64,000 bases of DNA, from positions 1,178,001 to 1,242,000 of the forward strand of contig NZ_LR027849.1 in assembly GCF_900607235.1 (NCBI RefSeq), read 5' to 3'. Source of the stretch: Olivibacter jilunii (GTDB taxonomy: Bacteria > Bacteroidota > Bacteroidia > Sphingobacteriales > Sphingobacteriaceae). Below, in pieces: positions 23,704 through 33,393 of this stretch (the first letter of the stretch is position 1; every line of letters starts with the position of its first letter). The position numbers and the translations under genes are program-made. The notes beneath the pieces are model-generated. The model was not told the origin of the DNA, searched no databases, and saw nothing but the letters and a program-made list of their open reading frames with translations.

Positions 23704-26700
23704 ATGTTGAATAAAATCATTTTTTTTTGTATAAAAAACAAGCTGATTGTAGGTATATTTACCTTTGCACTCATTGTTTGGGGGGTATGGTCTGCAACTA
23801 AACTTCCTATTGATGCGTTACCTGACATTACCAATAATCAGGTGCAAATAATTACCAGTGCTCCCAGTCTGGCAGCTCAGGAAATCGAACGATTAGTTAC
23901 TTTTCCAATTGAGCTATCCGTTGCCACCATTCCGCAGATGATCGAAATAAGAAGTATTAGTCGTTTCGGTCTTTCAGTGATTACGGTAGTATTCAAAGAG
24001 AAAGTAGATATTTATTGGGCAAGGCAACAGATTGCCGAGCGTATAAAAGAAGCTCAAAGCCAAATTCCACCAGGTATCGGCGAACCGAAATTGGGACCTA
24101 TCACTACTGGTTTAGGGGAAATTTACCAATATATCATCCATCCCCGACCAGGTGCTGAAAAACGATATTCACCTACTGATCTTCGAACAATGCAAGATTG
24201 GATAGTAGCGCGGCAACTGTATGGAACTCCCGGTGTAGCCGAGGTTAATAGCTTCGGCGGAATATTAAAGCAGTACGAAGTTGCAGTTCGTCCGGATAGA
24301 TTGCAGGCTCATAACATTACAATTGCCGAAGTATTCACCGCCTTACAAAACAATAATGAGAATACAGGCGGTGCATATATCGATAAAAAGCCCAATGCTT
24401 ATTATATCCGTTCACTCGGCTTGGCGCGGAGTTTAACCGATATTGGAAACATTGTGATCAAAAAAGATAGTAAGGGTGTTCCAATTTTAATTAAAGATGT
24501 CTCCAGTCCACAATTTGGCGGAGCCATACGATATGGCGCTTTAACTTATAATGGAGAAAGGGAGGCAGTGGGAGGTGTGGTTATGATGTTAAAGGGCTCT
24601 AATAGTGCAGAGGTCGTAAAGCTGGTTAAGGAAAAGATGCGGACGATACAAAAGTCGCTTCCCAAAGATATTGTAATCGAACCTTATCTAGACCGAACAA
24701 ATCTAGTGAATCGCGCCATTGATACCGTCAAAAGTAACCTAATAGAAGGTGCCTTGATCGTTATTTTGGTTCTTGTCCTGTTTCTGGGTAACCTTCGTGC
24801 CGGCCTTATCGTCGCATCTGCTATTCCACTTTCCATGCTTTTTGCATTCTCAATGATGAACATCTTCGGTGTCAGTGCCAATCTGATGAGTTTAGGTGCG
24901 ATCGATTTTGGCTTGATCGTAGACGGAGCAGTTATTATCGTAGAAGCGACAATGCATCACTTTGGCCTACGAAAATCTGCCTTCAGATTAAACCAAGAAG
25001 AAATGGACGATCATGTATTTGATTCAGCTGTAAAAATCCGATCGAGTGCTGCTTTTGGCGAAATCATTATTTTAATGGTATACATCCCTATTCTAGCATT
25101 AACGGGTATTGAGGGGAAAATGTTCAAACCAATGGCGCAGACTGTTAGTTTTGCGATCATTGGTGCTCTCATACTTTCCATGACCTATGTCCCGATGATG
25201 TGCGCGCTTTTTCTTTCTAAAAAACCGATACAAAAAAAGACTTTTTCCGATCGTTTAATGTATAAATTACAACGGTTTTATACTCCTTTATTAAAAAAAG
25301 CATTAAGAGCACCCTATTGGATTCTATCATTTACCTTGTTGCTTTTTGGAGGAAGTGCATACCTATTCTCAAGAATGGGAGCAGAATTCATTCCGCAACT
25401 AAAAGAAGGTGACTTTGCTTTTCAGTGTGTACTTCCACAAGGTGCGTCACTTTCACAGAGTATCGAAACGTCGATGAAGGCCGCTAAAATTCTCAAAACT
25501 TTCGATGAAGTAAAAATGGTGGTTGGAAAAACGGGTTCTGCTGAAGTCCCAACCGATCCAATGCCACCTGAAGCAACCGATCTCATGGTTATTCTAAAGA
25601 ATCAATCAGAATGGAAAAGCGACCGCAGTTATGAGCAGCTTGCTACCGATATGGAGAAGGCGTTAAATTTACTACCAGGCGTGTATATCGAAGCCAATCA
25701 GCCCATACAAATGCGCTTTAACGAGTTAATGACGGGTATTCGGCAAGATGTGGCAATCAAAATTTTTGGCGAGAACTTAGATTCGCTTGCGACTTATGCT
25801 GATAAGGTGACAACTTCAATCGCCACCGTTCGCGGAGCTTCCGGTGTATTACCCGAGCCCATCAGTGGATTACCGCAAATTACAGTAACCTATAATTATG
25901 ACCAACTTGCAAACTACGGTACAACCATCAAAGCACTAAACACAGCACTAAATACGGCTTTCGCCGGTGCAATTGCCGGTGTAATTTATGAAAATGAAAG
26001 GCGGTTTGATTTAGTTTTACGCTTAGATAGTACTGTTAAAAACAATATTGACGATGTTCGTAATTTGCTCGTGCCGATTTCAAATGGTGAACAAGTTGCA
26101 CTTTCTCAACTGGCAAATATCGAGTTTAAAGATGGCCCCGCGCAAATTAGTCGCGACGATGCAAAAAGACGTATAGTAGTCGGTTTCAATATTGTAGGTC
26201 GTGACGTCCAAAGTGTTGTTGACGACATCAAAAATAAAATTGATGAAGAAGTAAAATTACCGGATGGTTACTTTTATACCTTTGGAGGTCAGTTTGAGAA
26301 TCTGCAAGAAGCAAAATCGAGACTACTCATCGCAGTACCCCTAGCTTTGTTGCTAATTTTCGTTTTACTGTTCTTTACATTCCGCTCGACGAAAGAATCC
26401 GTATTAATATTTACCGCCATCCCGATGTCGGCTATCGGTGGAATAATCGCTCTAAAGCTTCGTGATATGCCATTTAGCATTTCAGCCGGCGTCGGCTTTA
26501 TTGCTTTGTTCGGCGTAGCCGTATTGAATGGTATCGTATTGATTAGTACATTCAATCAGTTGAAAAAAGCAGGACAGGGAAACATCCTACGCCGTATTCT
26601 TGAAGGATCACTCACCAGGCTGAGACCTGTTTTGATGACAGCAACAGCGGCGTCCCTCGGGTTTCTACCTATGGCTATATCCTCCGGTTCCGGAGCTGAA

Positions 26701-28083
26701 GTTCAGAAGCCATTGGCCACCGTTGTCATAGGAGGTTTAGTAACCGCGACACTCCTTACCTTATTTGTTTTGCCGATACTTTATTTTCTTTTCTACTCTT
26801 TCAAACTTAGGAGTCCTAAACGCTTGATCCGAATGATTTCCTTAGCGCTAGTACTGCTTACCGAACCTTCCCTTATCGTTTCCGCTCAAAATCAACAAGA
26901 CATGATCCAAGGCAGAATTAGCTTAGACGAAGCCATAAACATGGCCTTGAAAAACAATCCTGGACTTAAAGAAGCTGATGTAAATCGGCTTAGACAGAAA
27001 GCTTTGGAAAAAAGCGCTTTTGATCCGGCCAACATAGATATTTCGGCAGCGCAATCTCCTTTAGAAGGCGCCAGTCCGGACAACAACATAGGTATTGGTC
27101 AAACATTCAGCTTCCCAACGGTATACGGTGCTAAAAGACAACTGTTAGAAGAACAAACCACATTAGCGGCAACAAGTCTAACAGTAAGTAAGAACGACCT
27201 TATACGTGACGTGCGTATCGCTTTTGCTAATCTCGTTTATGCCAATCAATCACTCAAGCTCCGGACAAAACAGGATAGCATCTTGAATGAATTTCTCAAA
27301 ATCGCCGAACTGCGTTATAATACAGGAGAAACTTCGAAGACCGAGTTACTGATTGCATCCAATCGTTATCGACAGCTTCAATTACAACAGCAACAGGCAG
27401 GCGCTGCTAAAATAGCTGCTTTGCAGGAGTTGATGCGTTTGCTTAATGTATCCGAACCATACGATATAAAAGAGCAAGAAGATTATAAATTAAGTATTTT
27501 ATCAACAACAGATAGTGTCGCACTTAAAAATAACCCGCTGCTATCTTTTGCTAATCAACAAATCCGCGTAGCGGAAGAATCGGTCAAGGTACAGAAATCG
27601 GCTTTTTTACCGGATATCACTGTTGGCTATCAACAGCAACTCATTCTTCAGGGATGGAATCCGGAAGGAATAAACAAATCATACGGACAAAGAACTAAAA
27701 TAGCTGGTGTTTCTCTAGGGGTCGCAGTACCTCTATTTAATTTAGCCGCACAAAAAGCGAAAGTAAAAGCTTCTCTACTGGCAACCAAAGCTGCTGAATA
27801 CGCATATGAGCAGACCTTCAATAATTTAAAAACGACTTTTATGCAACAATTAAGTTATTACCGACCGTTACAGGCTGCCCTTATATTTTATGAAGATAGT
27901 GGACTGCAAGAAGCGGACGAATTGATCGCCTCTTCGAGATTAGGATATAGAAAAGGTGAGATTGACTACGTAGCTTATACACAAAGTATAGAACAAGCTT
28001 TTAATACCCACCTCCAATACCTTGAAACACTTAATCGGTATAATCAGGTGGTAGCCACTATAAATTATCTAACCGGGAAATAA
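23704..28083 (+). CDS. CzcA-type heavy-metal RND pump fused to a TolC/CzcC-like outer-membrane factor
   Basis: A 1459-residue fusion. Residues 1-1040 are a complete HME-RND permease with 12 membrane helices and two large periplasmic loops. The proton-relay motif in helix 4 is D401-FGLIV-D407-GA..E414, the DFGx3DGA form linked to divalent ions (Co, Zn, Cd) rather than Cu/Ag. After the last helix and a basic stretch (KLRSPKRLIR) comes a signal-peptide-like segment, residues 1044-1061, ending VSA before Gln1062. Residues 1075-1459 are a TolC-like outer-membrane efflux protein (SLDEAINMALKNNPGL, then two coiled-coil regions). It probably forms a trans-envelope pump with the CzcB lipoprotein that follows. 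Fusions of this type are common in Sphingobacteriaceae; how the two parts reach different membranes is unclear. Confidence 0.92.
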   Translation: MLNKIIFFCIKNKLIVGIFTFALIVWGVWSATKLPIDALPDITNNQVQIITSAPSLAAQEIERLVTFPIELSVATIPQMIEIRSISRFGLSVITVVFKEKVDIYWARQQIAERIKEAQSQIPPGIGEPKLGPITTGLGEIYQYIIHPRPGAEKRYSPTDLRTMQDWIVARQLYGTPGVAEVNSFGGILKQYEVAVRPDRLQAHNITIAEVFTALQNNNENTGGAYIDKKPNAYYIRSLGLARSLTDIGNIVIKKDSKGVPILIKDVSSPQFGGAIRYGALTYNGEREAVGGVVMMLKGSNSAEVVKLVKEKMRTIQKSLPKDIVIEPYLDRTNLVNRAIDTVKSNLIEGALIVILVLVLFLGNLRAGLIVASAIPLSMLFAFSMMNIFGVSANLMSLGAIDFGLIVDGAVIIVEATMHHFGLRKSAFRLNQEEMDDHVFDSAVKIRSSAAFGEIIILMVYIPILALTGIEGKMFKPMAQTVSFAIIGALILSMTYVPMMCALFLSKKPIQKKTFSDRLMYKLQRFYTPLLKKALRAPYWILSFTLLLFGGSAYLFSRMGAEFIPQLKEGDFAFQCVLPQGASLSQSIETSMKAAKILKTFDEVKMVVGKTGSAEVPTDPMPPEATDLMVILKNQSEWKSDRSYEQLATDMEKALNLLPGVYIEANQPIQMRFNELMTGIRQDVAIKIFGENLDSLATYADKVTTSIATVRGASGVLPEPISGLPQITVTYNYDQLANYGTTIKALNTALNTAFAGAIAGVIYENERRFDLVLRLDSTVKNNIDDVRNLLVPISNGEQVALSQLANIEFKDGPAQISRDDAKRRIVVGFNIVGRDVQSVVDDIKNKIDEEVKLPDGYFYTFGGQFENLQEAKSRLLIAVPLALLLIFVLLFFTFRSTKESVLIFTAIPMSAIGGIIALKLRDMPFSISAGVGFIALFGVAVLNGIVLISTFNQLKKAGQGNILRRILEGSLTRLRPVLMTATAASLGFLPMAISSGSGAEVQKPLATVVIGGLVTATLLTLFVLPILYFLFYSFKLRSPKRLIRMISLALVLLTEPSLIVSAQNQQDMIQGRISLDEAINMALKNNPGLKEADVNRLRQKALEKSAFDPANIDISAAQSPLEGASPDNNIGIGQTFSFPTVYGAKRQLLEEQTTLAATSLTVSKNDLIRDVRIAFANLVYANQSLKLRTKQDSILNEFLKIAELRYNTGETSKTELLIASNRYRQLQLQQQQAGAAKIAALQELMRLLNVSEPYDIKEQEDYKLSILSTTDSVALKNNPLLSFANQQIRVAEESVKVQKSAFLPDITVGYQQQLILQGWNPEGINKSYGQRTKIAGVSLGVAVPLFNLAAQKAKVKASLLATKAAEYAYEQTFNNLKTTFMQQLSYYRPLQAALIFYEDSGLQEADELIASSRLGYRKGEIDYVAYTQSIEQAFNTHLQYLETLNRYNQVVATINYLTGK

Positions 28084-28113
28084 CCATACCAGCATAGCTC
28101 AAAAAAACAAAAA

Positions 28114-29325
28114 ATGAAAAGAATAAAATTATGGGGATGCGTTTGTGCCATCCTGTTGAATTTATCCTGTCAGTCAAATCGCTCAAATAAAGCATCAACC
28201 AATTCTTTCCGCACCGAAACGGCAGAAAACACCGCAAAAGAGGCTAAAACGTTCGACTTGCTCAGTATTCGCGAAGATCAACTCAAGGCCATCGATGCTA
28301 CCTTAGGTTATATTGAAAAAAAGGATCTAAAAAACGGCTTGCAAGCTGTGGGTTTTGTTCGGGTACACAATCAAGATAAAGCCTCCATATCGTCGTTATA
28401 TGGAGGTAAAATACAATCCTTATATATTTCTCCCGGCTCTGTTGTAAAGAAAGGACAACTAATCGCTACGCTGCTTAATCCGGAAATTATCGTATTGCAA
28501 GAGGAGTATCTGACATTAAAAAACAGCATCGAGCTTACAAAGATCGAATTAAATAGACAAGAGGAACTCATGAGAGGAAATGCCGGTGCATTAAAGAATT
28601 ACCAAAACATAAAAGCGCAGCTTGCCCAACAACAAATCCGACTCGCATCTATCCGGAAACAGCTAAGTTTGGCCGGCATAGATGCCCCGAAACTAAGCGT
28701 AGAAAACATAAGAGAAAGCCTATCGGTAACAGCTCCAATGGCCGGCACTGTTGCCAGTGTTGAAATGGGGCTTGGTGCCAGTGCTGATGCAGGGATGATT
28801 ATTGCACGCATTGTGAATAATGAGGAAGTAGATCTCGATCTGTATGTTTATGAGAAAGATTTGGAGAAAGTAAAAATAGGGCAGGAAATCACATTCAGCC
28901 TTTCAAATAATCCCAACAAAGAGGGCAAAGCAATTGTCGATAAAGTAGGAAGTTCTTTCGAAGGAGAAAATAAAGCGGTTGCCGTGCATGCACGAATAGT
29001 AGGCAATCGGAATGGGTTCATAGACGGAATGGGTGTAAATGCGATACTGAGCATCGGAAATACCACGGTTAACGCGATTGCTAATGACGGAATTGCTCAG
29101 AAAGAGGGTAACAGTTATATATTTTACGTTAACGAAGAAAAGATCAACACAGACAAAGAAAAAGAATATCTCTTCAAACGTATTCGAATAAAAAAGGGTG
29201 CAAGCTCGCTCGGCTACACCGAAATTATCCCAATCGATGTATTACCTGACAGTGTTAAAGTCGCCACATCCTGCGCGGTATTCATTCAAGCCAAAATGGA
29301 CGGCGGCAATCAGCATGGTCATTAA
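28114..29325 (+). CDS. CzcB/CusB-type periplasmic adaptor lipoprotein
   Basis: A 403-residue adaptor, 30 bases after czcA. The N-terminus has a lipobox (LLNLSC, Cys19), so it is a lipoprotein. The order is typical of membrane fusion proteins: a barrel-sandwich/lipoyl half (IQSLYISPGSVVKKGQLIATL), an alpha-helical hairpin (about 125-200), the second lipoyl half (VTAPMAGTVASVEMGLGA), and beta-barrel and membrane-proximal domains. It bridges the RND pump to the outer-membrane channel and may hand over metal. The N-terminal His-rich extension of some CzcB proteins is absent. Confidence 0.9.
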   Translation: MKRIKLWGCVCAILLNLSCQSNRSNKASTNSFRTETAENTAKEAKTFDLLSIREDQLKAIDATLGYIEKKDLKNGLQAVGFVRVHNQDKASISSLYGGKIQSLYISPGSVVKKGQLIATLLNPEIIVLQEEYLTLKNSIELTKIELNRQEELMRGNAGALKNYQNIKAQLAQQQIRLASIRKQLSLAGIDAPKLSVENIRESLSVTAPMAGTVASVEMGLGASADAGMIIARIVNNEEVDLDLYVYEKDLEKVKIGQEITFSLSNNPNKEGKAIVDKVGSSFEGENKAVAVHARIVGNRNGFIDGMGVNAILSIGNTTVNAIANDGIAQKEGNSYIFYVNEEKINTDKEKEYLFKRIRIKKGASSLGYTEIIPIDVLPDSVKVATSCAVFIQAKMDGGNQHGH

Positions 29326-29377
29326 CAATGATTATGAACAAGGGCATCTAATTTTTTTATTTATTAATTTTATTATT

Positions 29378-31333
29378 ATGAAAGAACAGCATAAAGAGCA
29401 GCACAATACCGGTTTTTTTTCCAATATGGAGCTCGTATTTGCGCTGCTTTCGGGGCTCGCTTTGGGCATCGGCTATTTACTATCAATAAACAACGAAACA
29501 TTCATGGCATTGGCAGCCTCTATTTTGGCCTATTTTTTTGGCGGGTTTTTCACATTAAAAGAAGCAATCAAAACCATAGCGAAAGGAGCTTTCGAGATTG
29601 ATTTTCTCATGTTTGCCGCAGCAGTTGGAGCAGCTATATTAGGAAAATGGTCAGAAGGCGGCCTGTTACTTTTTCTATTCAGTCTTGGTCATGCTTTAGA
29701 ACACTATGCACTCGGTAAAGCACGTAAATCGATACAAGCATTGACGGATTTAGCCCCGCCGACCGCCCTGTTACTGCAAGCAGGCAAGGAAGTGGAGATC
29801 AAAATAGAAGAATTGCAATTAGGGGATACTATACGTATAAAACCGAATAGCAAAGTTCCGGCAGACGGGGTTGTCGTAAGAGGTGAGGGGACTGTTAACC
29901 AGGCACCAATTACAGGTGAAAGTATTCCGGTAGATAAAATGGCCATTGATGACCCTACGAGAGATTATTCCAAAGTTAAGAAGATAGATCAAAAAAACCG
30001 GGTGTTTGCGGGCACTATCAACGGAAACCGAGTGCTAGAGGTCCAGGTAACAAAAGAGGCGAAAGATTCGACCATTGCACGATTAATACATATGGTTAAT
30101 GAAGTAGAAGAACAAAAGTCGCCTACCCAATTATTGACCGATAAATTTCAGCGATATTTTGTTCCGGCCGTTCTTTTATTAGTGATCCTACTATGTTTCG
30201 CGTTTTTAATTGTTGATGAAACATTCAACGAAAGTTTTTATCGGGCCATATCAGTTCTGGTAGCGGCGAGCCCATGCGCCTCAGCTATTTCTACACCGAG
30301 TGCTGTATTAAGTGGTGTAGCCCGTGCAGCTAAAGGAGGAGTTTTGATCAAAGGAGGTAGGCCACTTGAAGATTTGGGTATATTAGATGCCGTAGCTTTC
30401 GATAAAACAGGGACTTTGACAGAAGGCAAGCCAAAGTTAGCTGAACTAATCATATTCGACGGAGTTGATAAGCAAGAATTTTATTCCACAGTTCTAGCTG
30501 TCGAACAGCAAAGCGATCACCCTTTAGCTCAGGCAATCGTTAACGGCATTAATGAAATCGTTGAACCTAATAGGATAAGTGAGGCTATCGATATAGAAAG
30601 TGTTACGGGTAAAGGCGTGAAAGGTACGATCGACAACAGTTTAGTTTTGATAGGGAATAAGGCTCTTTTCTCAAGTGACGACGGGAATCTTCCACAGGAT
30701 TATAAAGAACAAGTGGAGACATTAGAAGCAGAAGGAAAAACGGTGATGTTAGTTAAAAAAGGGAAAGATTTTCTCGGAATTATTTCTGTAATGGACAAAC
30801 CCCGAGTAGGCGCAAAAGAAACACTCGCAGCGCTCCGAAAGCTTGGCATTCGACGAATGATCATGTTAACGGGCGATAATCAACAGGTTGCAAATTCTAT
30901 TGCAAAGGAGATCGGATTAACAGACGCGTTCGGTGATTTAATGCCTGAAGATAAGGTAAGAGCCGTTAAACAACTCACAGACAAAGAAGGCAAGGTAGCC
31001 ATGGTGGGCGACGGGGTGAACGATGCCCCCGCCATGGTAAAAAGTACGGTTGGAATCGCAATGGGAGCGGCGGGTTCGGACGTTGCACTGGAGACAGCAG
31101 ATATAGCCTTGATGGCGGACAAGTTAGAAAACCTGCCTTTTGCGATCGGCCTAAGCCGTAAGTCGAAAGCAATTATTCGTCAGAATTTGTGGATAAGCTT
31201 AGGAGTAGTCGTGCTTCTCATTCCGCTAACTATGTTCGAGCTTGCCTCCATTGGCCCGGCTATTTTCGCTCATGAAGGCTCTACCTTGGTGGTCGTTCTT
31301 AATGCGTTGAGATTATTGGCTTATAAAAATTAA
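29378..31333 (+). CDS. P1B-4-type metal-exporting ATPase
   Basis: I choose the ATG at 29378 (651 residues); an earlier in-frame ATG lies inside czcB and would add an unrelated segment. The phosphorylation motif is DKTGTLTEG (Asp342), the ATP-binding HP is in SDHPLAQAI, and the hinge is MVGDGVNDAPA. The membrane metal site reads SPC at Ser298-Cys300, not CPC, and helix 6 carries HEGST from His632. SPC plus HEGGT-like is the signature of the P1B-4 group, which exports Co2+, Fe2+, Zn2+ or related ions. There is no N-terminal metal-binding domain, as usual for this group. It sits 52 bases after czcB and is likely in the same transcript, moving ions from cytosol to periplasm for the RND pump. Confidence 0.92.
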   Translation: MKEQHKEQHNTGFFSNMELVFALLSGLALGIGYLLSINNETFMALAASILAYFFGGFFTLKEAIKTIAKGAFEIDFLMFAAAVGAAILGKWSEGGLLLFLFSLGHALEHYALGKARKSIQALTDLAPPTALLLQAGKEVEIKIEELQLGDTIRIKPNSKVPADGVVVRGEGTVNQAPITGESIPVDKMAIDDPTRDYSKVKKIDQKNRVFAGTINGNRVLEVQVTKEAKDSTIARLIHMVNEVEEQKSPTQLLTDKFQRYFVPAVLLLVILLCFAFLIVDETFNESFYRAISVLVAASPCASAISTPSAVLSGVARAAKGGVLIKGGRPLEDLGILDAVAFDKTGTLTEGKPKLAELIIFDGVDKQEFYSTVLAVEQQSDHPLAQAIVNGINEIVEPNRISEAIDIESVTGKGVKGTIDNSLVLIGNKALFSSDDGNLPQDYKEQVETLEAEGKTVMLVKKGKDFLGIISVMDKPRVGAKETLAALRKLGIRRMIMLTGDNQQVANSIAKEIGLTDAFGDLMPEDKVRAVKQLTDKEGKVAMVGDGVNDAPAMVKSTVGIAMGAAGSDVALETADIALMADKLENLPFAIGLSRKSKAIIRQNLWISLGVVVLLIPLTMFELASIGPAIFAHEGSTLVVVLNALRLLAYKN

Positions 31334-31438: not shown

Positions 31439-32149
31439 TTATCCAAACCAACCGTAATAAAACAAGCCAATCACGACAGCAATACCAAAGCTTAGTAATG
31501 TACCTATTAACACATATTCAGTCAGTCTTCTGTCATCACCTTGCTTCAAGTCGCCGAATCTGAAAATTGATTTAGCGGCCAATAAAAAACCAACCGCGTC
31601 GAACTTTCCTACGATAATGAAGACAAAAATCAATAATCGCTCCAAATAACCAATCCACTTCCCCGCATTCTGCAATGAACTGTCAACCCTTCCGTCCTCT
31701 TGAGGTGTCCATTTAGAAATAGCCGTTTTAATAAGTATTGAACATGGTTTTGTGAGAAATAGCAGGCAAAAGTATAGGACCAGTTTTTCCGCATCGAACA
31801 GCTTGTCCAAAGAGGGTATCTCCACACTTTCAGCCATTATAACGGCCGCAGCAATAATTGAAACATGAAAGATCTGGTCAACAATTAGCGCCTCCACCTG
31901 CCATTTCTTTTGTTGAAAATATAGTTTCGCCAAATCGATTAAATAATGTGTCAATCCAATGAAAACAGCATAAGGCCAAAATTGGATATCCCAAGCCATC
32001 AACCATGCCAAACCGATATGAAGCAAACAATGGTAGTAGAGGTAAGGGGATTTTACTTTCTTATGTTCTTTTGACTTTACGCCTTTATCACTTTGTATAA
32101 AGAAGTCGCCTATCAAGTGGGCCAATAACAACCTTAAAAACAGCTCCAT
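31439..32149 (-). CDS. DUF3307 membrane protein
   Basis: A 236-residue integral membrane protein with about seven helices. Its conserved charged and polar residues sit in or next to helices: AHLIGDFFIQSDK at 10-22, YYHCLLHIG near 38-46, THYLIDLAK near 66-75 and VDQIFHV near 90-96. This repeated H-x3-D-like pattern resembles intramembrane metal-dependent hydrolases such as the YdjM/DUF457 group, so an enzyme acting on a lipid or lipid-linked molecule is possible. That function is inference. The gene follows satD with a 9-base gap, and the two families are often neighbours in Bacteroidota. Confidence 0.85.
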   Translation of the reverse strand: MELFLRLLLAHLIGDFFIQSDKGVKSKEHKKVKSPYLYYHCLLHIGLAWLMAWDIQFWPYAVFIGLTHYLIDLAKLYFQQKKWQVEALIVDQIFHVSIIAAAVIMAESVEIPSLDKLFDAEKLVLYFCLLFLTKPCSILIKTAISKWTPQEDGRVDSSLQNAGKWIGYLERLLIFVFIIVGKFDAVGFLLAAKSIFRFGDLKQGDDRRLTEYVLIGTLLSFGIAVVIGLFYYGWFG

Positions 32150-32158
32150 TTTAAGTTA

Positions 32159-32770
32159 TTAAATTGATTTCAGTCTTTTTTCAAACAATTCAATGAGATC
32201 CCTAATTTCCGCAAGATAGGCACGATTAAACCGTTCACTTACCGACGACTGGCTTATTCCCAAAATTTCACCCAATTCCTTTTGTGATAAGCTCGGATGA
32301 TCAAAAACCGTTTGTACCAACATAGCCGAATTTGGTGTCCAATTATCGATGAAGGTAAGGGCAAGCCTGAAAAACAAATTGAAATCTTCATTAAAAGTAT
32401 TGTTCCCGGTTCGAATGGCCAAAGTTTGTTTATTTTTTTTAAGTAATTCAAATTGTTCGCCCGAGAAAAGATAGGCATCACCATATGATTCGGTGACACG
32501 CTCTCCTGTAAAGCTTTTCGCTCCAACACCTATTGATATTCGAGCGTCTAAGTCCTTTACGGTCTTTAAGCTCGCTTTTAAGTACAAAGCGCTATGCAAG
32601 GCATTTACTGGATTTGATAGTTCCAGCTGAAAACTATCGCCTCTAAAGATTTCCCAGTCTGTATCACTTTCAGTCACCTTGGAAAGACTTTCCTTTAACA
32701 GATCATTCCATTCTCTCGCAGATTTCGCCTTTCTTGAATTGATTATATCTCCTGTTAGTACCGCTATCAT
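32159..32770 (-). CDS. SatD family protein with C-terminal HTH
   Basis: The ATG at 32770 gives 203 residues (MIAVLTGDIINS); a TTG three codons earlier would lie next to the operator. The first 130 residues contain TGDIINSRK, FRGDSFQL, RISIGVGAKSF and ESYGDAYLFSGEQFE. This spacing resembles a nucleotide-cyclase/GGDEF-type palm, with Asp residues at the first and second motifs. The end (LSQKELGEILGISQSSVSERFNRA) is a clear helix-turn-helix. I infer a DNA-binding protein with a nucleotide-binding or cyclase-like sensor domain. The function of SatD is not established; the name comes from an acid-tolerance operon in streptococci. It is the first gene of a two-gene unit with DUF3307 and probably regulates itself. 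Confidence 0.8.
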   Translation of the reverse strand: MIAVLTGDIINSRKAKSAREWNDLLKESLSKVTESDTDWEIFRGDSFQLELSNPVNALHSALYLKASLKTVKDLDARISIGVGAKSFTGERVTESYGDAYLFSGEQFELLKKNKQTLAIRTGNNTFNEDFNLFFRLALTFIDNWTPNSAMLVQTVFDHPSLSQKELGEILGISQSSVSERFNRAYLAEIRDLIELFEKRLKSI

Positions 32771-32777
32771 AAGCAGC

Positions 32778-32813
32778 AATATCGGACAAAAATCCGATAT
32801 TAAAAAATATCGG
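32778..32813. promoter_or_regulatory. Operator with three AATATCGG half-sites before satD
   Basis: AATATCGGA-N6-TCCGATATT (32778-32801) is a perfect 9-bp dyad, and a third direct copy, AATATCGG, follows at 32806-32813. It lies 8 bases before the satD ATG and about 60 bases before the divergent lipoprotein start. A homodimeric or multimeric HTH protein, most simply SatD, could bind here. Confidence 0.65.
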
Positions 32814-32871
32814 CTAAATAATCTATAAAAATCGTTAAAACCTATATTTTTACATGATAAAACTATATAAA

Positions 32872-33393
32872 ATGAAGACTTTCAAAATCTTATTTTTATT
32901 TTCTGCAGCACTTATAGTATGCGCCTGTAATAAAATATCGTTAACAAAGGAAGAGGCGTACAAGCTCATTGAGCAGCATAGAAAATATCCGCAGATTCAG
33001 AGCTATCAAATTTATACGAAAGATGCCGAAGACGGACGTCGAGTGTTAGATGCCGGTTTGGAAAAAGATGGATTGGTACAGGTAGAACGCAATCATAAAA
33101 CAGGAGAGAATCAAAAGGCTATTATTCGTTTTACTGACAAAGCAAGTGAGCTCTTATTGCCTCCCGATAAAGGGCAGTTAAGCTCTGTCCAGAAGGTAAA
33201 AATCGCAGAGGAGGTACTTGATTCGGTTGTGTCGGTACAAGTCAGCGAACAACAAAAAACCGCCCTTGTTACCTTTACAACCAAGTATATAAATGTTAAT
33301 CCCTTTTCAAAGTTAGATAAAAAAGACTATAGCCAAATAAAAAAGCATGAAGCTAAACTGAGCCTAACCAAGGATGGTTGGACTGTGCAATGA
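32872..33393 (+). CDS. Small lipoprotein of unknown function
   Basis: The ATG at 32872 gives 173 residues with a typical lipoprotein signal (KILFLFSAALIVCAC, lipobox Cys19). The upstream ATG at 32854 would add six residues. The mature part is charged and helical at first (SLTKEEAYKLIEQHRKYP), followed by beta-rich segments. I do not recognise the family. The N-terminal YKLIEQHRKYPQIQSY and a central GLVQVERN... pattern suggest a small winged-helix-like or membrane-associated domain, without confidence. It is divergent from satD and shares the operator region with it. Confidence 0.75.
   Translation: MKTFKILFLFSAALIVCACNKISLTKEEAYKLIEQHRKYPQIQSYQIYTKDAEDGRRVLDAGLEKDGLVQVERNHKTGENQKAIIRFTDKASELLLPPDKGQLSSVQKVKIAEEVLDSVVSVQVSEQQKTALVTFTTKYINVNPFSKLDKKDYSQIKKHEAKLSLTKDGWTVQ

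Follow-up and report, generated by a model that had tools for sequence, protein, structure and literature searches.

A putative autoregulated palm–HTH switch with an evolving operator code and a constant membrane partner in Olivibacter jilunii and its relatives

Organization of the satD locus

The window analysed here is a 64,000-nucleotide stretch of the Olivibacter jilunii genome (6.7 Mb, 21 contigs), which holds a satD-like gene paired with a DUF3307 gene. Both genes are encoded on the minus strand, their open reading frames 9 bases apart, and a short array of inverted half-sites precedes satD (Table 1). The ATG at 32770, which gives a protein of 203 residues, is a likelier satD start than the TTG at 32779. 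An ATG aligns exactly with residue 1 in 34 of 57 homologous loci (the window included), and the nearest ATG lies 3–18 bases upstream in the other 23, eight of which place it at −9, the position of the TTG; this survey counts the nearest ATG only and so leans rather than decides. The opposite strand immediately ahead of the pair (23704–31333) has a long RND-type efflux ORF, one ORF of adaptor type and one of heavy-metal P-type ATPase type, read as metal-export genes from their translations alone. A divergent lipoprotein-like gene at 32854–33393 (weak LPAM_1 and DUF4853 matches) shares its 83-base intergenic stretch with the half-site array, and the array might also affect this gene.

Table 1. 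Features of the satD locus, in window coordinates
Feature	Position	Strand	Description and basis
satD	32159–32770	−	203-aa palm and HTH protein, ATG 32770, stop included; ORF and PF16264 match of 24.2 bits
SatD palm domain (predicted)	32381–32770	−	Residues 1–130, invariant D8 and G44-D45; AF2, VIA-align, palm profile
SatD HTH domain	32216–32335	−	Residues 146–185; HTH_24 above cut-off, Sigma70_r4 slightly below
SatD recognition helix region	32219–32254	−	Residues 173–184; S175, S176 and E179 co-vary with the operator; mutual information, independent pairs, modelled helix 174–183
DUF3307-LER membrane protein	31439–32149	−	236 aa; PF11750 E 2.1e-26; directly 3' of satD at homologous loci
DUF3307 domain	31832–32143	−	Residues 3–106; H/D-rich helices
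LER domain	31454–31687	−	Residues 155–232; three predicted helices; profile matches 36 of 36 partner proteins
Half-site TATCGG, closest to satD start	32780–32785	+	
Half-site TATCGG, 14 bp further, opposite orientation	32794–32799	−	
Half-site TATCGG, 28 bp from the first	32808–32813	+	
Degenerate fourth half-site, TATAGA	32822–32827	−	Same 14-bp step

SatD is a diverged family member with a predicted palm fold

The first reading of this DNA, made from the sequence only, described four SatD motifs in the order of a cyclase- or GGDEF-type palm, followed by a helix-turn-helix (HTH). Those motifs are confirmed in that order, TGDIINSR at residues 6–13, FRGDSF at 42–47, RISIGVG at 77–83 and GDAYLFSGEQFE at 97–108, and the HTH is supported by an HTH_24 match of 22.1 bits (cut-off 21.9), with Sigma70_r4 reaching 22.2 bits (cut-off 24.1). 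Against PF16264, the SatD family of the Streptococcus mutans sat operon, the protein scores 24.2 bits, under the 29-bit Pfam gathering cut-off; residues 5–182 of 203 align to model positions 4–193 of 211, a full-length match across the GD-motif domain and the C-terminal HTH. Because this score falls below the cut-off while two members of its close group (L014 and L028, from genomes G125 and G017) exceed it with 30.1 and 31.1 bits, the window protein is labelled here, by profile comparison, a diverged SatD-like protein. A single-sequence search returned no relatives of SatD, but a profile search did recover them, and 45 of 57 match PF16264 at E ≤ 0.01. D8, G44, D45, G81, G83, G104 and Q163 are invariant across the alignment of these 57. 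In a more diverse set of 104 SatD proteins, D8, G44 and D45 are present in all, F47 in 102 and Q48 in 99, and position 46 is S in 71 and E in 29.

The AlphaFold2 model of SatD (76 sequences; pLDDT 96.4, pTM 0.92) runs beta-alpha-beta-beta-alpha-beta up to about residue 120, with helices after. Foldseek places Ma1120 first for this model (E 7e-4), and 2 of 848 matches reach E ≤ 0.001. VIA-align retrieves the GGDEF domain of DosC (Z 9.9, rmsd 2.8 over 118 residues), GTP cyclohydrolase III (Z 9.8, rmsd 3.2, 112 residues), Cmr2 (Z 9.0, rmsd 2.8, 112 residues) and Y-family polymerases (Z ~8.6); all of these matches cover residues 1 to ~130, and the best rows, within 1 Z of each other, are tied. A profile of the palm part alone, searched against PDB sequences, also finds Ma1120 (E 7e-4) and aligns D8 and the GD motif with the Asp and GD of the cyclase, and one of the 57 SatD members matches Pfam Guanylate_cyc (E 0.0035). 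The N-terminal part of SatD is predicted from these models to be a palm, in agreement with the motif-based assignment.

The palm fold and two metal-binding aspartates that mark class III nucleotidyl cyclases are both found in SatD, the fold by prediction and the aspartates as D8 and D45 in 104 of 104 proteins. Class III cyclases also have a transition-state Asn and Arg. Neither was recognised by eye at the expected places in the GDAYLFSGEQFE segment of the window SatD, and catalysis may therefore be lost in window-type SatD; distant SatD proteins read GPAFHxARxxIE. The GG[DE]EF signature of GGDEF enzymes is likewise absent from the window SatD, which has RGDSF. Given that D8, G44 and D45 are kept in every one of the 104 proteins, the natural inference is that a metal and nucleotide site is under selection.

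The constant partner is a C-terminal membrane domain

The DUF3307 domain is a clear member of PF11750 (92.8 bits, cut-off 23, residues 3–106). The H-x3-D-like motifs first seen in its helices are present, and eight of the H/D positions (H11, D15, H40, H44, H68, D72, D91 and H95) are identical in all 54 sequences compared, the window included. At other loci the gene following satD is short (~105–120 aa) and matches the C-terminal part of the window protein, roughly residues 155–232, with the pattern G..IG.LER ... A.K...RF ... EY.LIGT..S. This C-terminal membrane domain is here named LER. Its profile matches the downstream gene at all 26 distant SatD loci that have a usable ORF there (E 1e-24 to 8e-4 when these 26 sequences are searched; four of 30 loci were dropped for want of such an ORF), hhalign gives a probability of 95 for the same comparison, and the 36 partner proteins that it matches include plasmid and archaeal ones. 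In Agrobacterium the annotated partner is the second half only. Loci L178–L188 have a third type of partner, in which an unrelated N-terminal membrane part (MNYTIFLGILNLILLSRLRL...) lies ahead of LER. By these profile comparisons, LER is the constant partner of SatD, and DUF3307 is an N-terminal addition in some lineages.

The partner model is all-helical, with LER helices at 157–179, 183–203 and 207–235. Among the proteins scanned, LER has no Pfam or NCBIfam match over cut-off; sequence-profile searches of the PDB give nothing up to E 1 for the whole partner and one chance match at 0.92 for LER alone. Foldseek also finds no PDB fold match for DUF3307-LER (best E 1.8), and an enzyme or transporter is therefore not indicated.

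satD and its partner are strongly paired

A DUF3307 gene lies directly 3' of satD, on the same strand, at 57 of 57 relatives' loci (59 minus L083 and L089, which have no tblastn SatD match) and at 80 of 80 further loci, with gaps of −17 to +109 bases between the two genes at homologous loci. In a sample of 300 genomes from the order, searched with a single-sequence query for DUF3307 and a profile for SatD and with the two lists compared by eye, 166 genomes have both genes, nine SatD alone, one DUF3307 alone and 124 neither. The single DUF3307-only genome has a remnant with a stop. Five of the nine SatD-only genomes have a short membrane gene adjoining; of the others, G341 is truncated where its contig ends, G262 keeps a remnant of satD, and in G339 the match is 57 aa long. 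In G369 (locus L220) satD is intact, the partner is gone and a single clear dyad is left of the upstream array, as though partner and array degenerate in parallel.

The reverse search, with LER in 296 genomes from the phylum, yields 118 rows in 105 genomes. Of the 110 rows examined, 104 follow a satD gene of the same strand, three are cut by a contig edge and three (G474, the second copy in G423, and G613) have no satD in the fetched stretch; some of these loci had gone into the SatD profile itself, a bias towards finding satD rather than missing it. The eight rows left out comprise five that adjoin SatD matches (G024, G019, G644:C5, G574 and G122), along with a second fragment in G501 and G536:C2:17113. 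The DUF3307-LER proteins without satD in G474 and G423 (L344, L347) follow a ThiF-like ORF, a different gene neighbourhood. The survey of co-occurrence proposed with the first reading thus bears out a pairing that is very strong, though not absolute, and revises the partner from DUF3307 to LER.

A 14-bp operator lattice precedes satD

Upstream of satD, the first reading described three copies of AATATCGG, two of them as a perfect dyad, and took them for an operator. The copies are at 32778–32785 (+), 32794–32801 (−) and 32806–32813 (+), and form two perfect dyads, copies 1–2 with 9-nt arms and copies 2–3 with 8-nt arms; a 28-bp direct repeat (32778–32799 and 32806–32827, 73%) spans them. Copy number by itself is weak, since the whole window has seven copies against 2.9 expected and 5 of 100 shuffles reach seven; the telling point is that three fall inside 36 bases. 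Comparison with homologous loci keeps the copies and the dyad and replaces the picture of one dyad plus a spare copy with a lattice, in which half-sites of the form TATnnn alternate in orientation every 14 bp. The window array has three exact TATCGG half-sites, at 32780, 32794 and 32808, and a degenerate fourth.

The lattice is conserved. Allowing one mismatch per half-site, 111 of 131 non-redundant loci have a chain of at least three half-sites before satD, compared with 5 of 131 controls made by dinucleotide shuffling; the form TATnnn was picked post hoc, with equal freedom given to the control. Six half-sites is the commonest number (exactly six in 56 of 131). A test with no imposed motif, scoring exact-match arrays of any 6-mer, finds them at 67 of 137 loci against 0 of 2,740 mononucleotide shuffles (six duplicate proteins separate the 137 loci from the 131). 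The arrays are made of whole dyads: 92 of 111 begin with a half-site in the > orientation and 100 of 111 finish with one in the < orientation. The array at locus L022 is unusually long: 200 bases hold 14 half-sites that keep the 14-bp step. Beyond the close group the arrays become weaker, common but not universal: among the 104 phylum-wide pairs, a 6-mer and its complement occur at least five times in 28 upstream regions (2 of 2,080 shuffles), at least four times in 49 (55 of 2,080) and three times or fewer in 55. Dyads are present too at the plasmid copies of Vibrio, Enterobacter and Haloplanus, seen there without a shuffled control.

TAnnTTTG, the Bacteroidota −7 element, is also enriched, with 96 occurrences against 18.8 in shuffles, and 61 of these occurrences share one phase of the 28-bp repeat. 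This enrichment suggests that promoter and operator of satD interlock or overlap. By eye, no exact TAnnTTTG is seen in the window's own array, and a sigma-70 promoter scan finds six sites against 4.9 expected.

By exact dyad patterns, no second array was found elsewhere in the O. jilunii genome, and the idea of a regulon beyond the operon was set aside. The exact pattern TATCGG-8-CCGATA occurs at three places (one for the reversed-pattern control), and the two besides satD (L090, L092) are both inside ORFs. The pattern CCGATA-8-TATCGG occurs exactly at three places (satD, one within an ORF and one intergenic, L095) and at 30 when one mismatch is tolerated, where the control gives 18. Satd is the only place at which the exact inner and outer dyads coincide.

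Half-site letters co-vary with the recognition helix

The variable half-site letters differ from lineage to lineage. Among the 111 loci with chains, the half-site is TATTCC in 33, TATCGG in 26, TATCAC in 20, TATCGT in 12 and TATCTG in 5, with the rest rarer. The variants go with particular HTH residues: TATCGG mostly with QSSxSE, TATCGT with QNTxSE, TATCAC with QNAxS[ST]R, TATTCC and TATGCC with QDAxSKR, and TATCTG with QG[RN]xSE, each group having exceptions. By mutual information, columns 175, 176 and 179 are the three most informative of the 203 for each of the three variable half-site positions; this test and the pair test that follows leave out the 20 of 131 loci with chains under three. 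In 55 disjoint closest pairs, residue 175 gives the strongest signal of any column (Fisher p 1.2e-4): it differs in 9 of the 15 pairs that differ in half-site and in 3 of the 40 that share one. Residue 176 is second (7 of 15 against 2 of 40); third comes G167, in the HTH, and fourth L68, which lies in the palm and outside the HTH. Residue 179 is outside the best 12 columns. Since half-site-changed pairs are more distant than unchanged ones (0.35 against 0.22), relatedness is incompletely removed from this test. Because the columns that best predict the half-site letters lie in the recognition helix, SatD is predicted to read its own array, and very probably binds it. The self-regulation proposed in the sequence-only reading gains support from both operator conservation, which held up across satD homologues, and this co-variation.

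Plasmid carriage

In tblastn searches of plasmid records, two SatD queries match 15 and 9 records. The smallest context is pEC34A of E. coli (3,770 bp), whose five annotated genes are a hypothetical gene, Rop, MobA, a SatD-like protein and DUF3307; the matches include six Klebsiella records, five of them likewise of 3,770 bp. On Enterobacter pDW108 the order is GajA, GajB (E 3.7e-235 and 1.5e-232), an IS3 transposase, the pair, DUF4365 and an integrase. Other plasmid carriers are Pseudomonas fragi, Segatella copri, the archaeon Haloplanus, Agrobacterium, Vibrio lentus and Arthrobacter, and the Bacteroidota pairs examined are mostly chromosomal. A megablast search of 5,426 complete E. coli genomes for the pair gives plasmid backbone matches only, covering at most 12% of the query. 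SatD has no match among 50,697 phage records, and a phage origin of the pair was set aside on that ground; four IMG/VR contigs have a satD with a DUF3307-like ORF behind it, and these contigs may derive from prophages or plasmids. None of the PADLOC models (2023) fits SatD or its partner, the only match being Csa3 at E 0.02. A role in phage defence, which the first reading had allowed, is possible on circumstantial grounds.

Proposed function of the switch

Comparison across loci, in the operator lattice, the recognition-helix co-variation, the gene pairing and the predicted fold, gives good support to an autoregulated palm–HTH switch whose operator code evolves and whose membrane partner is constant and unmodelled. 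It is fairly probable that SatD is more specifically a ligand-responsive autorepressor of its own two-gene operon, with a nucleotide-binding palm and a membrane-protein output. The C-terminal HTH would bind TATCGG half-sites as dimers or as a short chain of dimers, one dyad taking 20 bp and one repeat 28 bp. The array would sit just upstream of the satD promoter and probably over it. The palm, built like that of a class III nucleotidyl cyclase or GGDEF enzyme and keeping both metal-binding aspartates, would bind and perhaps convert a nucleotide, and this binding would set the occupancy of the array. The output would be the co-translated membrane protein, with LER constant and, here, an H/D-rich DUF3307 domain. 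Repression rather than activation, nucleotide binding and an effect on or by the membrane protein are the parts that we infer, repression from the promoter–operator overlap; the array could equally serve activation.

A different output is conceivable, though somewhat unlikely, in which the membrane protein is a housekeeping enzyme or transporter without toxicity, and SatD regulates it in response to envelope stress or to a nucleotide-like metabolite. The invariant H/D positions of DUF3307, the frequency of the pair within one order (166 of 300 genomes), the ThiF-like ORF ahead of two LER proteins without satD and the link between satD of the streptococcal sat operon and acid tolerance in S. 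mutans, as given in PMC10326533 and PMC11323703, all fit such a role. However, a core metabolic regulator would not be expected to be patchily distributed, to be carried on plasmids or to use operators that differ by lineage, and the partner has no PDB fold match.

Slightly less probable is that the pair forms a guard or toxin–antitoxin-like module. A harmful LER protein would then be restrained by SatD, through autorepression together with the palm (by contact, or by a nucleotide product as mCpol restrains 2TMbeta), and loss of SatD or of the nucleotide, for example on phage attack, would free the effector. The order of regulator then effector, with overlapping or nearly overlapping ORFs, the small E. 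coli plasmid and its Klebsiella counterparts, and the neighbouring Gabija genes and integrase of pDW108 are consistent with this. In Streptococcus pyogenes, moreover, satD is accessory (178 of 249 genomes) yet scored essential, according to PMC11323703. A toxin–antitoxin effector should never be found intact without its antitoxin gene; in the order sample the only DUF3307 gene lacking satD is the remnant, and G369 keeps satD without its partner, but in the phylum the three LER loci without satD (beside the three cut ones) hold the estimate for a guard down, and the incomplete pairing weakens a strict toxin–antitoxin reading. The mostly chromosomal location in Bacteroidota, the lack of a fitting PADLOC model and the absence of SatD from the phage records also speak against it. 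It is highly improbable that the dyads work at the RNA level, attenuating or terminating transcription in the satD leader, rather than as DNA binding sites: 32813–32794 (−) is called terminator-like and the dyads form hairpins, but strict 14-bp steps and half-site/HTH co-variation are expected of a DNA-bound protein, not of hairpins, and the region has two terminator-like sites against 1.5 expected.

A bolder form of the guard idea, unlikely on present evidence, makes SatD-LER a guard system that is widespread among bacteria and archaea and moves horizontally, and in which a nucleotide pool kept by the palm holds the LER effector inactive and SatD counts itself on the 14-bp lattice. If it were true, the operator code would be re-written in each lineage, insulating each copy from the others.

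Under the autorepressor reading, a cyclase-type palm fused to an array-reading HTH would be an unusual coupling of nucleotide chemistry to transcription. Both SatD and DUF3307 have so far been named as uncharacterised families and no more, although satD was scored essential in S. pyogenes, as cited above. The locus offers three handles: the recognition code (residues 175, 176 and 179 against three half-site letters), the unmodelled membrane domain and a minimal 3.8-kb plasmid system in E. coli.

Comparison with known systems

PMC10326533, PMC10210942, PMC5786311 and PMC12005413 mention SatD in connection with acid tolerance or as a protein that binds DNA and give no mechanism. A literature search, mostly outside subscription journals, returned nothing on SatD structure, its operator or the LER domain, and for DUF3307 a mention in a phage gene table without mechanism. 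Compared with the SatD family PF16264, the window protein has the same palm-like N-terminal part with GD motif and C-terminal HTH along one full-length model, but it scores under the Pfam cut-off, and the literature found gives no fold, operator or partner domain for the family.

Among palm enzymes, Ma1120 (4wp8, 4wp9) shares the fold, the aligned metal aspartates and an RxxxG strand; the SatD palm is, however, shorter and attached to an HTH, and in the window type the transition-state residues are not recognisable. The palm is common as well to GGDEF cyclases (DosC, 4zvg) and GTP cyclohydrolase III (2qv6), and many distant SatD proteins have a GDEF-like motif, whereas the window SatD departs from the GGDEF signature.

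Panoptes (mCpol and 2TMbeta) likewise pairs a palm protein with a membrane protein, and PMC12657230 describes how the c-di-AMP made by the palm enzyme restrains a toxic membrane protein; PMC12657218 does not mention SatD or DUF3307. Unlike Panoptes, SatD has an HTH and an operator array, and its LER partner is all-helical in the model, whereas 2TMbeta combines two helices with a beta barrel. Autoregulated toxin–antitoxin operons differ in that 3 of 110 LER loci have no satD upstream, but they share with the SatD pair an upstream DNA-binding protein, an operator ahead of its own gene and plasmid carriage, and the constant adjacency of the two genes and the operator co-variation point to an operon whose upstream gene probably regulates itself.
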